A program made the position numbers and the translations under genes. A stretch of DNA of 5,116 nt from Nitrospinota bacterium (GTDB lineage Bacteria; Tectomicrobia; Entotheonellia; J063), in the NCBI GenBank assembly GCA_003696125.1, contig RFHZ01000371.1, forward strand, positions 1-5,116, given 5' to 3'. The notes beneath the pieces are model-generated. The model ran no database searches and had not been told where the DNA came from. It worked only from the letters and a program-made list of their open reading frames with translations. Within the stretch, counting starts at the first letter, position 1; the number at the start of each line of letters is the position of its first letter. Shown here piece by piece: positions 1 to 5,116 of the stretch.

Positions 1-834
1 GCCCGGGCCATCCACTACAACAGCTACCGGCAAGACAAGCCCCTGATCCCGATCAACTGCGGCGCCATCCCGGCCGAGTTGCTGGAAAGCGAGCTATTTG
101 GCTATGAAAAAGGCGCCTTCACCGGAGCCACCTCCAGCCGGATGGGACGTTTTGAACTGGCCAACGGGGGCACGATCTTCCTCGATGAGATCGGAGAGAT
201 GAGTCCCGCCCTCCAGGTGAAAATCCTGCGGGTCTTGCAGGAACGAGAGTTCGAACGGGTGGGAGGGACACGGACCATCCGGGTCGATGTCCGGATCATC
301 GCTGCCACCAACAAGAACCTGGAAGAGCTGGTCAATCAGGGTCTTTTCCGCGAAGACCTCTACTACCGCCTCAACGTCATTCCGATCAACATCCCTCCCC
401 TGCGTGAGCGCAAGTCAGACATCCCCCTCCTCGTCTACCATTTCATCGAGCGATTCAATAAAGAGAAGAAGCGGCACATCCAGGGGATCACCCCGGAAGC
501 CATGGAGATGCTCAAGCGCTACCACTGGCCAGGCAATGTCCGCGAGCTGGAGAACATCATTGAACGGATCGTGATCCTCAAAGGGAGCGGGATGATCACC
601 CCGGCCGACCTGCCGGAAAAGCTCGCCTCAACCTCACGCGAGGCCTTGCTACCAGATATCGAGATCCCAGAGGAGGGGATCGACTTCGGAGCCACCATGG
701 AAATGCTGGAAAAAGAACTGCTTCGCAAGGCTCTGGAAAAAGCCGGAGGGGTCAAGAGCAAGGCGGCGCGCTTCCTGCACATGAATCGGACCACCCTGGT
801 GGAGAAGGTGAAAAAACTCCGCCTCGAGGTCTGA
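1..834 (+). CDS. Sigma-54-dependent transcriptional activator, FleQ/FlrA/FlgR-like, 5' partial
   Basis: The gene is open from base 1 and has no start in the window; 277 residues are visible. Seen: the fragment opens with ARAIHYNS, which normally directly follows Walker A in this family. It then shows the sigma-54 contact loop GAFTGA (residues 38-43), Walker [11 protein letters not shown] (56-65), sensor I AATN (about 101-104), LYYRLN near the arginine-finger region, WPGNVREL (sensor II), and a Fis-type helix-turn-helix at about 236-277. Family knowledge: such AAA+ proteins hydrolyse ATP to remodel sigma-54 RNA polymerase at -24/-12 promoters. The recognition helix NRTTLVEK resembles FleQ/FlrA-type flagellar regulators, and flagellar genes follow directly, so a flagellar role is inferred. 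The N-terminal domain (receiver, FleQ-type or other) is outside the window, so the exact subtype and any phosphorylation or c-di-GMP control cannot be judged. The TTG at 79 lies inside the AAA+ domain and is not a start. No intrinsic terminator is seen after the stop. Confidence 0.95.
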
Positions 835-846
835 ATCTCAACACGA

Positions 847-860
847 GTCAAATTCTTGAC
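847..860. promoter_or_regulatory. Perfect palindrome GTCAA-N4-TTGAC, candidate activator (FleQ-box-like) site 1
   Basis: The bases read GTCAAATTCTTGAC: two perfect 5-bp arms around a 4-nt spacer, 12 bp after the activator's stop codon. It has the GTCA-N6-TGAC form recalled for FleQ boxes. Its centre lies about 191 bp upstream of the transcription start inferred from the -12 element. The overlapping TTGACA at 856-861 could be mistaken for a sigma-70 -35 box, but no acceptable -10 follows at about 17 bp. Binding is inferred from sequence form only. Confidence 0.55.
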
Positions 861-926
861 AATTCCCGGAAGGAGCCCTCTTTCGCCATCCTTCTCCCTT
901 CTCCTCTTCCCCCACGCCGGTGATTC

Positions 927-940
927 GCCATTTTTTTGAC
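927..940. promoter_or_regulatory. Degenerate GTCA-N6-TGAC-like element, candidate activator site 2
   Basis: The bases read GCCATTTTTTTGAC. The right half-site TTGAC is intact and the left is GCCA instead of GTCA. It lies exactly 80 bp after site 1, and TTGAC followed by A/G then ATTCCC is shared by both positions (856-867 and 936-947). The centre is about 111 bp upstream of the inferred start site, a typical distance for an enhancer-like site of a sigma-54 activator. It is weak alone and is listed because of its phasing with site 1. Confidence 0.35.
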
Positions 941-974
941 GATTCCCTCCTCTTCCTCCCCACGCCTCCCTTCC

Positions 975-991
975 TCTCACCCCTCTTCCCC
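975..991 (+). repeat. C-rich 17-bp repeat, copy 1 (near-match inside fliE)
   Basis: TCTCACCCCTCTTCCCC matches 4036-4052 inside fliE at 16 of 17 bases. The single difference is T versus C at the thirteenth base. It may be a fragment of a dispersed C-rich palindromic repeat, or chance similarity within pyrimidine-rich sequence. Confidence 0.3.
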
Positions 992-993
992 GC

Positions 994-1008
994 GTCAGCA
1001 GGGCTGAC
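994..1008. promoter_or_regulatory. Palindrome GTCAGC-N3-GCTGAC, candidate operator or activator site 3
   Basis: Two perfect 6-bp arms (994-999 and 1003-1008) flank an AGG spacer, ending 10 bp before the -24 element. The outer GTCA...TGAC halves match site 1, but the spacing is one base longer (N7 rather than N6). Centred about 44 bp upstream of the inferred start, it could be a promoter-proximal site for the same activator or an operator for another protein. The symmetry is plain in the sequence; the function is inferred. Confidence 0.45.
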
Positions 1009-1143: not shown

Positions 1144-3093
1144 ATGCGAAGATGGTGGAGAAAAGGGAAGCTATTTCTGGTGCTCTCCCTTCTCTGGTGG
1201 CTCATGCCCCAGCCCGGAGAGAGCACACCCCTGCTGCAACGGGTGCGGTTTGGCGATCATGGGGATTTCTTCCGGATCGTCTTTGATCTCCGGCAACCCA
1301 CCCCGTACCGCATCCTGGAGAAAAAAGACCGGTCGATCCTCCGAGTGGAGTTTCCCCGCCTGCGAGCACTCCCCCCTCAGACGCGCTATCAGCTTTCCCA
1401 CCCCCTGGTAAGAGATGTTCATCTTGCTTTGACCAGGGAGGGGGTGACAGGAGAGATTCGAGGGAGGCAGCCGATCAGGGTCAGGCGGCATTTTCGCCTA
1501 GATAATCCTCCACGCATCGTGCTGGACCTCTCACCCCGTCCTGAGCGGCAGGAAACACCCCCGCCTCCAGAGCCATCTCCAGCCGTCTCCCCCTCTACCG
1601 CCCAACAGCCCCCTGCTCCTCCTCCCCCGGCAGCAGAGCCAGAGGAAGCTTCCCCTCCGATCAAAACAGGAGAGGGCAGGTCAGAAGCTCTCCTCTATTC
1701 CCTGCTCCAGCAGGAGACCCGTCTTTCCCCTGCTGCCCTGGTGAAATACGCAGAGGATGCTCTCGCCCAGCAAGACTTCCAGACAGCCTATCAGGCCTAT
1801 ACGACCATATTACAGCGCTTCCCTCACTATACCGGCAATCATCTCATCGCTACCCGTCTGGCAGACATCTTACGCGAGCAGCACCGCTACCAGCAGGCGA
1901 TTGAGCGGTACGCAGAGGTCATAGAGCAGTATCCGGGAAGTGAAGGGGCATTGATCAGCCAGATTCGCATGGCCGAGCTCGGGGTGGAGTTTCCTGACCT
2001 CCTCTCCTCTCCTTCCGGAGATCGCTATATGCCCTATCGCCATCCGCTCTCCACTCTCCTCCGCATCAGCGAGAAATACGCTTTGAGTCCTCTGGCCGAC
2101 GTGGCCCTCTTTAAAGCCGGTGTTGTCCTGCTGAAACGCCATAAATTACAGGCGGCGCGAGAGAAATTCCGCCAGGTCCTGGAACGGTCGACAGAGCCTT
2201 CTCTCCGGGCCGAAGCAGAGAGAAAGATCGCCGAAACCTGGGAAGTCCTCCTCACCGACCTCTACCAGCAGGGGAAGCCCCTTCAGGTGCTACAAACCTT
2301 TTTCCGCGAAAAAACCGCGTTGCAGCAAAGTCCAGATTTCCCCCTCCTTCTGTCCTATGTGGCGGACAGCTACGCCCGACTCGGCCTGTCCGAGGAAGCC
2401 CTGCACATCTGGAACCAGGTCCTGGAGCAATCTACCACTCCCGACCTCCAACTGCAGGCCCGGTTTAAGCAGGCGACCCTCCTGGCAGAGGAAGGACGCC
2501 GGAGCGAAGCCCAGGCCTTGCTCCTGCCTCCAGAACATTTTTCCGGCTCTCCCCTCTTCGGCGCTGTCCTCTTCCTGCTGGGGAAGCTCGCCTTTCAGGA
2601 ACAGCGATTCGAGGAGGCGGTACACTATCTGACCCAGGCAGAACCCCGGCTTGACGATCCATCAGATCAGCTCCGGCTCCTGATCCTGCTGGGGAAGGGA
2701 TATCAGGCCTTAGGGAAAAGCCGGGCCAGCCAGCAGGCCTGGCAGCGATGTGTCGATCGTATCCCGTCCCAGACCGAGGCTCCCCCTGCTGCCGAAGAGT
2801 GCTTCCTGCTGCTTGCCGACACCTTTTTCACCCAACAGAGATATCAGGAGGCGTTATCCCTCTATGAGCAGGTCTTGTCTAAGTTCCCGCAGAGTCCCTA
2901 CCGGGATCAGGTGCGGTTCCGGATGGTGCAGATATACGCGAGACAGAAGGATGAAAAGGGGATAGAGCAGGTGTTGGCAGCCATAGAGCAGCCTTTCTGG
3001 CAGCGTATGGCGCAGGAGACGTTACAGGATCTGCGGTGGCAAAAACAGTTTGCCCCGCTGTTTGCGAGTTTTCAAAACCAGATGCTACGCTGA
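1144..3093 (+). CDS. Exported AMIN-like/TPR protein, first gene of the flagellar basal-body operon
   Basis: 649 residues from ATG 1144. The start is chosen because it directly yields a signal peptide (MRRWWRKGK, hydrophobic core to about residue 20, then PQPGES) and follows a good ribosome site. Residues about 32-130 look like an AMIN-type beta domain: VRFGDHGDFFRIVFDL, a central IRVRRHF strand and a closing PPRIVLDL. Residues about 131-175 are a proline/alanine/glutamate-rich linker. From about 200 to the end runs an alpha-helical TPR array of roughly eight repeats, clearest at 201-266, 403-436 and 551-585 (for example LLADTFFTQQRYQEALSLYEQVLSKFP). Family knowledge: AMIN domains direct periplasmic envelope proteins, often to cell wall or secretin complexes, and TPRs bind proteins. 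Inference: a periplasmic scaffold or assembly factor for the basal body, co-transcribed with flgB 38 bp downstream. No enzyme motif was seen and no gene name is recognised. An unrelated cell-envelope role is possible. Confidence 0.88.
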   Translation: MRRWWRKGKLFLVLSLLWWLMPQPGESTPLLQRVRFGDHGDFFRIVFDLRQPTPYRILEKKDRSILRVEFPRLRALPPQTRYQLSHPLVRDVHLALTREGVTGEIRGRQPIRVRRHFRLDNPPRIVLDLSPRPERQETPPPPEPSPAVSPSTAQQPPAPPPPAAEPEEASPPIKTGEGRSEALLYSLLQQETRLSPAALVKYAEDALAQQDFQTAYQAYTTILQRFPHYTGNHLIATRLADILREQHRYQQAIERYAEVIEQYPGSEGALISQIRMAELGVEFPDLLSSPSGDRYMPYRHPLSTLLRISEKYALSPLADVALFKAGVVLLKRHKLQAAREKFRQVLERSTEPSLRAEAERKIAETWEVLLTDLYQQGKPLQVLQTFFREKTALQQSPDFPLLLSYVADSYARLGLSEEALHIWNQVLEQSTTPDLQLQARFKQATLLAEEGRRSEAQALLLPPEHFSGSPLFGAVLFLLGKLAFQEQRFEEAVHYLTQAEPRLDDPSDQLRLLILLGKGYQALGKSRASQQAWQRCVDRIPSQTEAPPAAEECFLLLADTFFTQQRYQEALSLYEQVLSKFPQSPYRDQVRFRMVQIYARQKDEKGIEQVLAAIEQPFWQRMAQETLQDLRWQKQFAPLFASFQNQMLR

Positions 3094-3110
3094 GGTAAAC
3101 AAAGGTTACC
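3094..3110 (+). other. Small inverted repeat between the TPR gene and flgB
   Basis: GGTAA (3094-3098) and TTACC (3106-3110) form a 5-bp stem with a 7-nt loop directly after the TPR stop codon. It is too weak and lacks a T-tract to terminate transcription, so the TPR gene and flgB most likely share a transcript. It may be incidental. Confidence 0.2.
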
Positions 3111-3131
3111 AGCAAGAGAAGGATCGCTCCG

Positions 3132-3548
3132 ATGCTTCCAGCCCTCTTTTCCAGAAACATCGCCCTCCTGGCCAAGAACCTCGACCTGCGGTTGCGTCGA
3201 CATCACGTGTTGACCTCCAACATCGCCAATGCGGAGACTCCCGGCTATATCGCCAAGGATCTCCGTTTTGAAGAGGTCTTGCAGAAGGTTGCCGGGGCCA
3301 CCCCTCCAGACCCCCTGCACCGTACCCATCCCCGCCATCTTCCCAGCCCGGCAGAGGGAACCCGTGATGGCGAGGGAAAGCTGGTGGCCTCCCCTTCCGA
3401 TGATGTCGGACGCGATCTGAACACGGTATCGCTCGATCAGGAGATGGCCAGGCTCACCACCAACATGCTCAACTATAACGTCTCTACCGAAATCCTGACC
3501 CGGCTATTCGACCAACTGAAACGCACCATAACAGAAGGAGGACGGTAA
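3132..3548 (+). CDS. flgB: Flagellar basal-body proximal rod protein FlgB
   Basis: 138 residues, the usual FlgB length. Seen: the N-terminal rod signature LDLRLRRHHVLTSNIANAETPGYIAKDLRFEEVL (residues about 17-50), with the NIANAxTPGY motif shared by rod, hook and hook-associated proteins; a variable middle (about 55-98); and a conserved C-terminal helix, SLDQEMARLTTNMLNYNVST, followed by LFDQLKRTI. Family knowledge: FlgB is exported by the flagellar type III apparatus without a cleaved signal and forms the proximal rod with FlgC, FlgF and FliE. AAGGA (3119-3123), 8 nt before the ATG, supports this start. The stop is one base before the flgC ATG, so translation is probably coupled. Confidence 0.97.
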   Translation: MLPALFSRNIALLAKNLDLRLRRHHVLTSNIANAETPGYIAKDLRFEEVLQKVAGATPPDPLHRTHPRHLPSPAEGTRDGEGKLVASPSDDVGRDLNTVSLDQEMARLTTNMLNYNVSTEILTRLFDQLKRTITEGGR

Positions 3549-3549
3549 G

Positions 3550-3990
3550 ATGAACATGATGGCCGGCTTAGAAATCAGCTTCTCCGCCTTGCAGGCGCAG
3601 CGCATACGGATGAATGTGATCGCCGCCAACCTGGCCAATGCCGAGACCACCCGCACCCCAGAAGGGGGACCTTACAAGCGACGAGAAGTCATCTTTGCCG
3701 CCCAACCAGAGGTCTCCTCTTTCGAGGCGTTACTGCGTGATCGCCTACAGCAAGGGTTGAGCAAGGTTCGTGTCCTCGACATCATTACCGATCCCCAGGG
3801 GACGAGGGTGGTCTATGATCCTGATCATCCGGATGCGGATGCACAGGGGTACGTTACCCTCCCCAACATCAACCTGATCCAGGAGATGGTCGATCTGATG
3901 TCGGCCAGTCGCGCGTACGAGGCCAATGTTACGGCCATTAATGCCTTCAAAGACATGGTATCCCGGGCATTACAGATCGGTAAAGCGTAG
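3550..3990 (+). CDS. flgC: Flagellar basal-body proximal rod protein FlgC
   Basis: 146 residues, within the FlgC range. Seen: the N-terminal helix LEISFSALQAQRIRMNVIAANLANAETTRT (residues about 6-35), with the FlgC-typical continuation TPEGGPYKRREVIF, and the C-terminal motif NINLIQEMVDLMSASRAYEANVTAINAFKDM, shared by rod/hook-type proteins. Family knowledge: FlgC is a proximal rod subunit exported through the FliF-housed secretion gate. A strong AAGGAGG (3535-3541) lies 8 nt before ATG 3550 and overlaps the end of flgB. In-frame ATGs at 3556 and 3559 are possible starts but are spaced less well. The gene is intact, without oddities. Confidence 0.97.
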   Translation: MNMMAGLEISFSALQAQRIRMNVIAANLANAETTRTPEGGPYKRREVIFAAQPEVSSFEALLRDRLQQGLSKVRVLDIITDPQGTRVVYDPDHPDADAQGYVTLPNINLIQEMVDLMSASRAYEANVTAINAFKDMVSRALQIGKA

Positions 3991-3999
3991 GAGTACGGC

Positions 4000-4290
4000 A
4001 TGGAGATTACCCAGATTCAAAACGGTCTCCCCCCTTCTCACCCCTCTCCCCCCTCTGGGGAGCAGAAGGGAGGGTCTTTTCTCTCTTTTCTGCAGGATGC
4101 CCTCACCGAGACCAATCGCTTACAGCATGAAGCCGAGCAGGCCACCCGAGACTTTGTGTTGGGGCAGGCAGAGAGCGTTCACGCCACCATGCTTGCCCTG
4201 GAAAAAGCGGATATCGCGCTGCGCTTCATCACGCAGGTGCGGAATAAGGTGGTTGAGGCCTATCAAGAGATCATGCGCATGCAGGTTTAG
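4000..4290 (+). CDS. fliE: Flagellar hook-basal body complex protein FliE
   Basis: 96 residues, close to the usual 95-110. Seen: the conserved FliE body SFLSFLQDALTETNRLQHEAEQATRDFVLGQAESVHATMLALEKADIALRFITQVRNKVVEAYQEIMRMQV (residues about 26-96, quoted for its key blocks), including the near-universal AYQEIMRMQV end. Family knowledge: FliE joins the FliF MS ring to the rod and is among the first exported substrates. TAGGAG (3988-3993), which overlaps the flgC stop, provides the ribosome site 6 nt before the ATG. Odd point: residues about 10-25 (LPPSHPSPPSGEQKGG) are low-complexity and are encoded by a C-rich palindromic segment that could be an inserted repeat. The reading frame stays open through it. 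Confidence 0.96.
   Translation: MEITQIQNGLPPSHPSPPSGEQKGGSFLSFLQDALTETNRLQHEAEQATRDFVLGQAESVHATMLALEKADIALRFITQVRNKVVEAYQEIMRMQV
4032..4070 (+). repeat. C-rich palindromic element inside the fliE reading frame
   Basis: Nested arms pair: CCCTTCT (4032-4038) with AGAAGGG (4064-4070) outside, and CTCCCC (4046-4051) with GGGGAG (4057-4062) inside. The internal loop is asymmetric (7 nt against 1 nt). Four bases later comes TCTTTTCTCTCTTTT, so the whole resembles an imperfect intrinsic terminator or a dispersed palindromic repeat. Part of it (4036-4052) nearly repeats 975-991. It contains two runs of six C (4029-4034, 4048-4053), possible slippage points. Downstream fliF is intact as far as seen, so strong termination is unlikely. 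Confidence 0.45.
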
Positions 4291-4293
4291 GGG

Positions 4294-5116
4294 ATGGCAG
4301 CCGTGCGGGAACGACTACAGGCACTCCTCGACAAACTACCAGAGCGGCTCCGTAACCTTCCTCCGACCAGGCTCTTCCTCCTCCTGGGTCTGGCCGGAGT
4401 CGGGCTGGCCATCGCCCTGGTCTCGCTGCTCTGGATGTCGCGTGGTAGCGATCAGCAGGTACTCTATACCCGGCTCACCCTGGAGGATGCGGCCGCCATT
4501 ACGGCCAGGCTCAAGGAGATGGGAGTCCCTTATACCCTGCACAACGAGGGGACAACCATCAGCGTTCCGGCGTCCCGTGTCTATGAGCTTCGCCTGAAAC
4601 TGGCCGCCGAAGGCCTCCCCCAGGGAGGAGGGGTGGGGTTCGAGCTCTTTGATCAGCGCAACTTCGGGATGACCGAATTTGTGCAGAAGATTAACTATCG
4701 ACGGGCCTTACAGGGGGAACTCTCCCGGACCATCAGTCAACTGGCCGCCGTGGAGACCGCCCGGGTCCATCTGGTGATCCCGGAAAAATCCCTCTTCCTG
4801 GAAGAGCAGGAGAAACCGACCGCCTCGGTCGTGCTCAAGTTACGTCCCGGACACCGGCTGCGGCCAGAACAGATCCGGGGGATTGCCCATCTCGTGGCCA
4901 GTAGCGTAGAAGGACTCCAACCGGCCGACGTCATCATCGTAGATAGTAGCGGACAGATCCTGAACCAGAAGGAGGAAGGGGAAAACTTCCTCTCTCTTAC
5001 CGAGGCCCAACTGGAATACCAGAAGCGGATCGAGCAGAGCCTGGAGCGGCGGGTAGAGAGCCTGCTCGAGCGGGCCGTGGGCAAGGGAAAAGTGGCGGTC
5101 CGCGTCTCCGCCACCC
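4294..5116 (+). CDS. fliF: Flagellar MS-ring protein FliF, 3' partial
   Basis: 274 complete codons are visible before the window ends, about half of the usual 520-570 residues. Seen: a short cytoplasmic N-terminus, a membrane segment at about 26-48 (RLFLLLGLAGVGLAIALVSL), and a first ring-building domain (about 50-110) with VLYTRLTLEDAAAITARLKEMGVPY. A second domain with FGMTEFVQKINYRRALQGELSRTI then ARVHLVIPEKSLF (about 124-167) is highly characteristic of FliF/YscJ proteins. A third region starts after about 230. Family knowledge: FliF forms the inner-membrane MS ring that carries the C ring and surrounds the export gate. The gene starts 3 nt after fliE. ATG 4294 has only a weak upstream CAGG. 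GTG 4303 sits 9 nt after AGGGG (4289-4293) and is a credible alternative, shortening the protein by three residues. Confidence 0.97.
   Translation, partial: MAAVRERLQALLDKLPERLRNLPPTRLFLLLGLAGVGLAIALVSLLWMSRGSDQQVLYTRLTLEDAAAITARLKEMGVPYTLHNEGTTISVPASRVYELRLKLAAEGLPQGGGVGFELFDQRNFGMTEFVQKINYRRALQGELSRTISQLAAVETARVHLVIPEKSLFLEEQEKPTASVVLKLRPGHRLRPEQIRGIAHLVASSVEGLQPADVIIVDSSGQILNQKEEGENFLSLTEAQLEYQKRIEQSLERRVESLLERAVGKGKVAVRVSAT

Follow-up and report, generated by a model that had tools for sequence, protein, structure and literature searches.

A conserved, predicted FleQ-type operator between a FleQ/FlrA-clade activator gene and a sigma-54 promoter-like site in a flagellar gene cluster outside the Gammaproteobacteria

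FleQ-type regulators and their DNA target

The 14-bp FleQ box reads GTCAAT-NN-ATTGAC, and the protein itself carries a phosphorylation-incompetent receiver and contacts c-di-GMP through R144, R185, R334 and E330 (PMC10723142). In Vibrio cholerae, the FlrA site upstream of flrBC is of the form GTCA-N6-TGGC (as cited in PMC4641369), and in 2015 the inverted repeat yGTCA-N6-TGACr was predicted for the FleQ/FlrA-like regulator DVU2894 of the Desulfovibrionales (PMC4641369). The view from which the present work started, of a site preference described for gammaproteobacteria alone, is therefore superseded. FleQ-like activators have been listed in one phylum or class only (PMC3162934), and in the part of the literature that was covered, the motif was not found to be reported from Nitrospira-like genomes. 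In Pseudomonas, the motif occurs hundreds of times per genome, and its presence says little about where FleQ peaks lie (PMC6120874). Matches to it are therefore not to be trusted alone, and conservation and spacing have to carry the argument.

Organization of the locus

The stretch of DNA analysed here (the window; 5,116 nt of contig RFHZ01000371.1, assembly GCA_003696125.1, Nitrospinota bacterium) opens with the 3' part of a sigma-54 activator gene (1-834, forward strand; N-terminus outside the window) encoding an AAA+ domain and a Fis-type HTH (Pfam Sigma54_activat, AAA_lid_14 and HTH_8). A 309-bp intergenic stretch separates it from the first gene downstream of the promoter described below, which encodes an AMIN-TPR protein (1144-3093, forward; Pfam TPR families and a weak AMIN match). 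On the same strand follow flgB (3132-3548, TIGR01396), flgC (3550-3990, TIGR01395; best match of the protein 57% identical), fliE (4000-4290, TIGR00205) and the 5' part of fliF (4294-5116, TIGR00206), all above the model cut-offs.

The AMIN-TPR protein, used as a query, found no relatives among 84,980 species genomes, and it matches weakly the model of the flagellar collar protein FlcA (NF047371, E 1.2e-07, below cut-off). Relatives of the locus also have a TPR-like gene at this position, and in many loci of two phyla such a gene lies between the FleQ-like activator gene and a kinase gene. The order in many orthologous loci is activator, TPR gene, kinase, second activator and flgBC-fliEF. In the window, flgB comes directly after the TPR gene (3094-3131), where many relatives have the kinase and a FleR-like second activator, which suggests that a FleS/FleR-like pair has been lost or moved.

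An activator of the FleQ/FlrA clade

The closest solved relative of the window activator is Pseudomonas aeruginosa FleQ, and in a phylogenetic tree P. aeruginosa FleQ falls among these activators, with the FleR-like second activators forming a separate clade (support 0.988). From its sequence, the window activator is assigned to the FleQ/FlrA clade of sigma-54 activators. The NRTTLVEK that the original prediction had read in its recognition helix is indeed present and matches the (R)RTTLVEK of the FleQ clade: R468-T-T is invariant in 103 sequences, L471, E473 and K474 are nearly so, and position 467 is Asn in 88 of them. The corresponding helix of FleR-like proteins reads RTLRNKL.

The residues that contact c-di-GMP are another matter. 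In the same 103 sequences, E330 (FleQ numbering) is replaced by His in 86, the position of FleQ N186 is never Asn (0/103), and R334 is variable (Arg in 37). At R144 most relatives have Glu or Asp. The window activator keeps R185 and R334 and has His for E330; R144 lies outside its visible part. A canonical receiver (Response_reg, PF00072) is found in the closest full-length relative, and 84/91 full-length relatives retain the phosphoacceptor Asp, so that a phosphorylation-incompetent receiver of the FleQ type (PF06490) is likely absent from the window activator; a search with PF06490 returned weak hits only, none of them at activator loci. Most full-length relatives look like regulators controlled by receiver phosphorylation, with a canonical receiver and little of the c-di-GMP pocket. 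Given the kept helix, the altered contacts and the canonical receiver, these activators appear FleQ-like at the DNA, but their control probably differs.

Palindromes and promoter in the intergenic region

Three palindromes lie in the intergenic region where they had been described: GTCAAATTCTTGAC at 847-860, GCCATTTTTTTGAC at 927-940 and GTCAGCAGGGCTGAC at 994-1008. Downstream of them, the forward-strand site TGGTATATTTTTTGCT (1019-1034) has the GG and GC elements of a -24/-12 sigma-54 promoter with correct spacing, and relatives carry TGGCA-N6-TTGC at the corresponding position. Transcription from it would be expected to start near 1045, and with this start the centres assigned to the three palindromes (-191, -111 and -44) are correct.

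The first palindrome is a perfect GTCA-N6-TGAC with an A/T-rich core, as in the 14-bp FleQ box, and a perfect match within 835-1143 has a chance probability of about 0.0016 (5000 shuffles). The second keeps 7 of the 8 fixed bases, and alone it is not significant, because 1.27 matches with at most one mismatch are expected across the whole window. The third, GTCAGC-AGG-GCTGAC, departs from the box by its N7 spacer and is unremarkable as a palindrome, since 72% of shuffles contain at least one 6-bp-arm palindrome in the intergenic region.

Spacing bears on the second site. Where a box and a sigma-54 site could be paired (48 cases), they lie a median of 116.5 bp apart, and 36 of the pairs fall between 80 and 130 bp; the perfect box of the window, at 172 bp, is outside this main mode. 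The site at 927-940 is degenerate, yet lies at a usual distance from the promoter (92 bp), and is hence plausibly a FleQ-type box. In one relative (L186), the sole candidate box, GCCAATATCTTGAC, stands 103 bp before the sigma-54 site and shares with the second box of the window the same T-to-C change. The distance and this shared change suggest that, of the two, the second box may be the working site close to the promoter, with the first as a further strong site.

The C/T-rich intergenic sequence also contains imperfect direct repeats 79-80 bp apart (853-867/933-947, 87%; 884-912/963-991, 72%). An 80-bp duplication was considered as the origin of the second box and set aside, the best ungapped offset being 72, with P 0.02-0.09 in C/T-rich sequence; the repeats could conceivably be the trace of an old duplication.

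Conservation of the box beside the activator gene

In the phylum that includes a deltaproteobacterial MAG, 131/297 genomes have an orthologue of the activator, and in the phylum that includes a Nitrospira genome 78/148 do, at about 55-67% identity. For a set of 105 loci, grouped at 80% activator identity into 73 clusters, the window and a few Nitrospirota loci among them, all palindromes with 4+4 fixed bases and spacers of 0-14 (3840 in total) were scanned in the 600 nt downstream of the activator gene. GTCA-N6-TGAC ranks first, with 26 of the 73 clusters, and the next palindrome not nested in it reaches 9; in shuffled sequences, GTCA-N6-TGAC averages 0.35 and never exceeds 2, against the 26 observed. 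A perfect box is missing within 600 nt in the other 47 clusters. When only loci with a sigma-54 site are considered, the box is present in 25/34. The Nitrospira-containing phylum has a downstream box in 24/30 loci, counted without clustering for relatedness, one of them being GTCAATCGATTGAC. Of the spacers, N6 alone is enriched: in 132 pooled regions, it occurs in 76 and each other spacer in 0-3.

The comparison of orthologous regions thus finds the type of the first box kept in two phyla, and 847-860 is, as a predicted operator, a conserved FleQ-type box. As the same box recurs at the same places in many genomes, the pairing of regulator and DNA target appears to have persisted across phyla, in Deltaproteobacteria-like and Nitrospira-like genomes.

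Other promoters with the box

Is the motif also found at other flagellar promoters? The genomes of three relatives were scanned whole for GTCAW-N5-TGAC. Most sites are intragenic, and the intergenic boxes near sigma-54 sites lie beside the activator gene and directly before fliL-fliM. The latter arrangement, a box followed by a sigma-54 site, is seen in 3/3 genomes (L200 1448-1514, L206 1501-1603 and L235 2014-2137; FliL and FliM identified by Pfam), making fliL-fliM a recurrent second target. A search of fliM loci found an upstream box in 18/30; in 15 of these a sigma-54 site follows at 86-145 bp, and five of them are near-identical.

Upstream of the activator gene itself, GTCA-N6-TGAC occurs in 14/70 cases (shuffle mean 0.25), which suggests that the activator could regulate its own gene in some lineages. 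In one locus (L120), a second box, GTCAATTTTTTGAC, lies some 100 bp upstream of the activator gene.

Proposed mechanism and alternatives

Taken together, it is very probable that an activator of the FleQ/FlrA clade acting at 847-860, and probably at 927-940, drives sigma-54-dependent transcription of the AMIN-TPR and flg/fli genes. A dimer of its Fis-type HTH would bind the 14-bp box at 847-860, and probably also the weaker site at 927-940; the AAA+ ring of the box-bound activator would then remodel the sigma-54 RNA polymerase at 1019-1034, allowing it to transcribe the AMIN-TPR gene and flgB-flgC-fliE-fliF, i.e., early flagellar genes, as a presumed operon. The idea that the activator binds these sites is thus carried forward in part: presence in two phyla and before fliL-fliM strongly supports a FleQ-type site far beyond the gammaproteobacteria, and binding and activation are predicted on this basis. 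The series of three equivalent sites is not retained, the third having an N7 spacer and no counterpart in relatives, and the second being degenerate, though at the usual distance.

For the third palindrome, a different function can be considered. It lies within a predicted hairpin (987-1015; 13-nt arms, 11 pairs, shuffle P 0.06), which could mark where transcription of the activator gene ends and have no role as an operator. This is unlikely, as the hairpin is followed by no T-run and no terminator was called, its fold z-score is -1.45, and it has no counterpart in relatives.

Alternatively, all three palindromes might be operators of the activator, forming one cooperative array in which the third acts near the promoter. 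The third site does share the GTCA/TGAC ends, and two GTCA...TGAC pairs (N5-N8) in the region occur in 0/5000 shuffles. However, palindromes within 40 bp of sigma-54 sites are found in only 5/59 cases, and a dimer fitted to N6 would sit one base off at an N7 site. As a FleQ box, 994-1008 was rejected: its spacer misfits the 14-nt box and occurs in 1/132 regions of relatives, so that it is very likely not a FleQ box and the array is improbable.

Just as improbable is a real box bound by another regulator of the cluster, such as a FleR-like second activator. Across genomes, the box and the activator do not correlate cleanly: the fliL box is present in 14/24 genomes with an orthologue and in about 5/14 with none detected, in a set where MAGs are incomplete. 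Against this, the adjacent protein retains the recognition helix of FleQ and the box agrees with the one established for FleQ (PMC10723142), whereas the FleR-like helix differs and no FleR-like gene stands at this place in the window. Chance matches in the intergenic region, although a window this large should contain some with one mismatch, are hardly credible as a general explanation in view of the conservation, spacer and spacing statistics. They are refuted for 847-860 by the conservation tests; 927-940 and 994-1008 may be such matches.

Implications and comparison with known systems

What the predicted operation of the first box by the FleQ/FlrA-clade activator adds is a further conserved FleQ-type operator, and a modest point on which parts of FleQ are old. 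Two properties of FleQ are separated here, DNA specificity being kept and the residues contacting c-di-GMP mostly not kept in relatives. A tentative scenario, perhaps a little short of an even bet, is that the FleQ box and its recognition helix predate the c-di-GMP switch, and that a phosphorylation-controlled regulator runs a small core regulon, the gammaproteobacterial form having changed later. If so, this regulon would comprise the neighbouring operon and fliL-fliM in Deltaproteobacteria-like and Nitrospira-like phyla, and the gammaproteobacterial form would later have lost phosphorylation and gained control by c-di-GMP. The operator can be searched for, and together with its spacing rule and the two recurrent targets it provides a testable flagellar regulon in phyla for which few genetic tools exist.

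Among described systems, DVU2894 of Desulfovibrio vulgaris is likewise a FleQ/FlrA-like regulator from outside the gammaproteobacteria, with the same inverted repeat and a flagellar role, predicted by comparison; it differs in having no N-terminal domain and no conserved sigma-54 promoter by its gene (PMC4641369), whereas here the box precedes a sigma-54 promoter beside the activator gene. As with V. cholerae FlrA, the activator gene is followed by an operon with a sigma-54 promoter under its (here predicted) control, and relatives show an FlrA-like order, with kinase and second activator after the activator locus; unlike at flrBC, the window has the AMIN-TPR gene and then flgB, with no kinase or FleR-like gene there. 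With P. aeruginosa FleQ, finally, these activators share the clade of the AAA+ and HTH regions, the RTTLVEK helix, the GTCA-N6-TGAC box with its A/T-rich core and flagellar sigma-54 targets, but unlike FleQ most full-length relatives (84/91) have a canonical receiver with its phosphoacceptor Asp, and E330 and R144 are not kept and R334 is variable.
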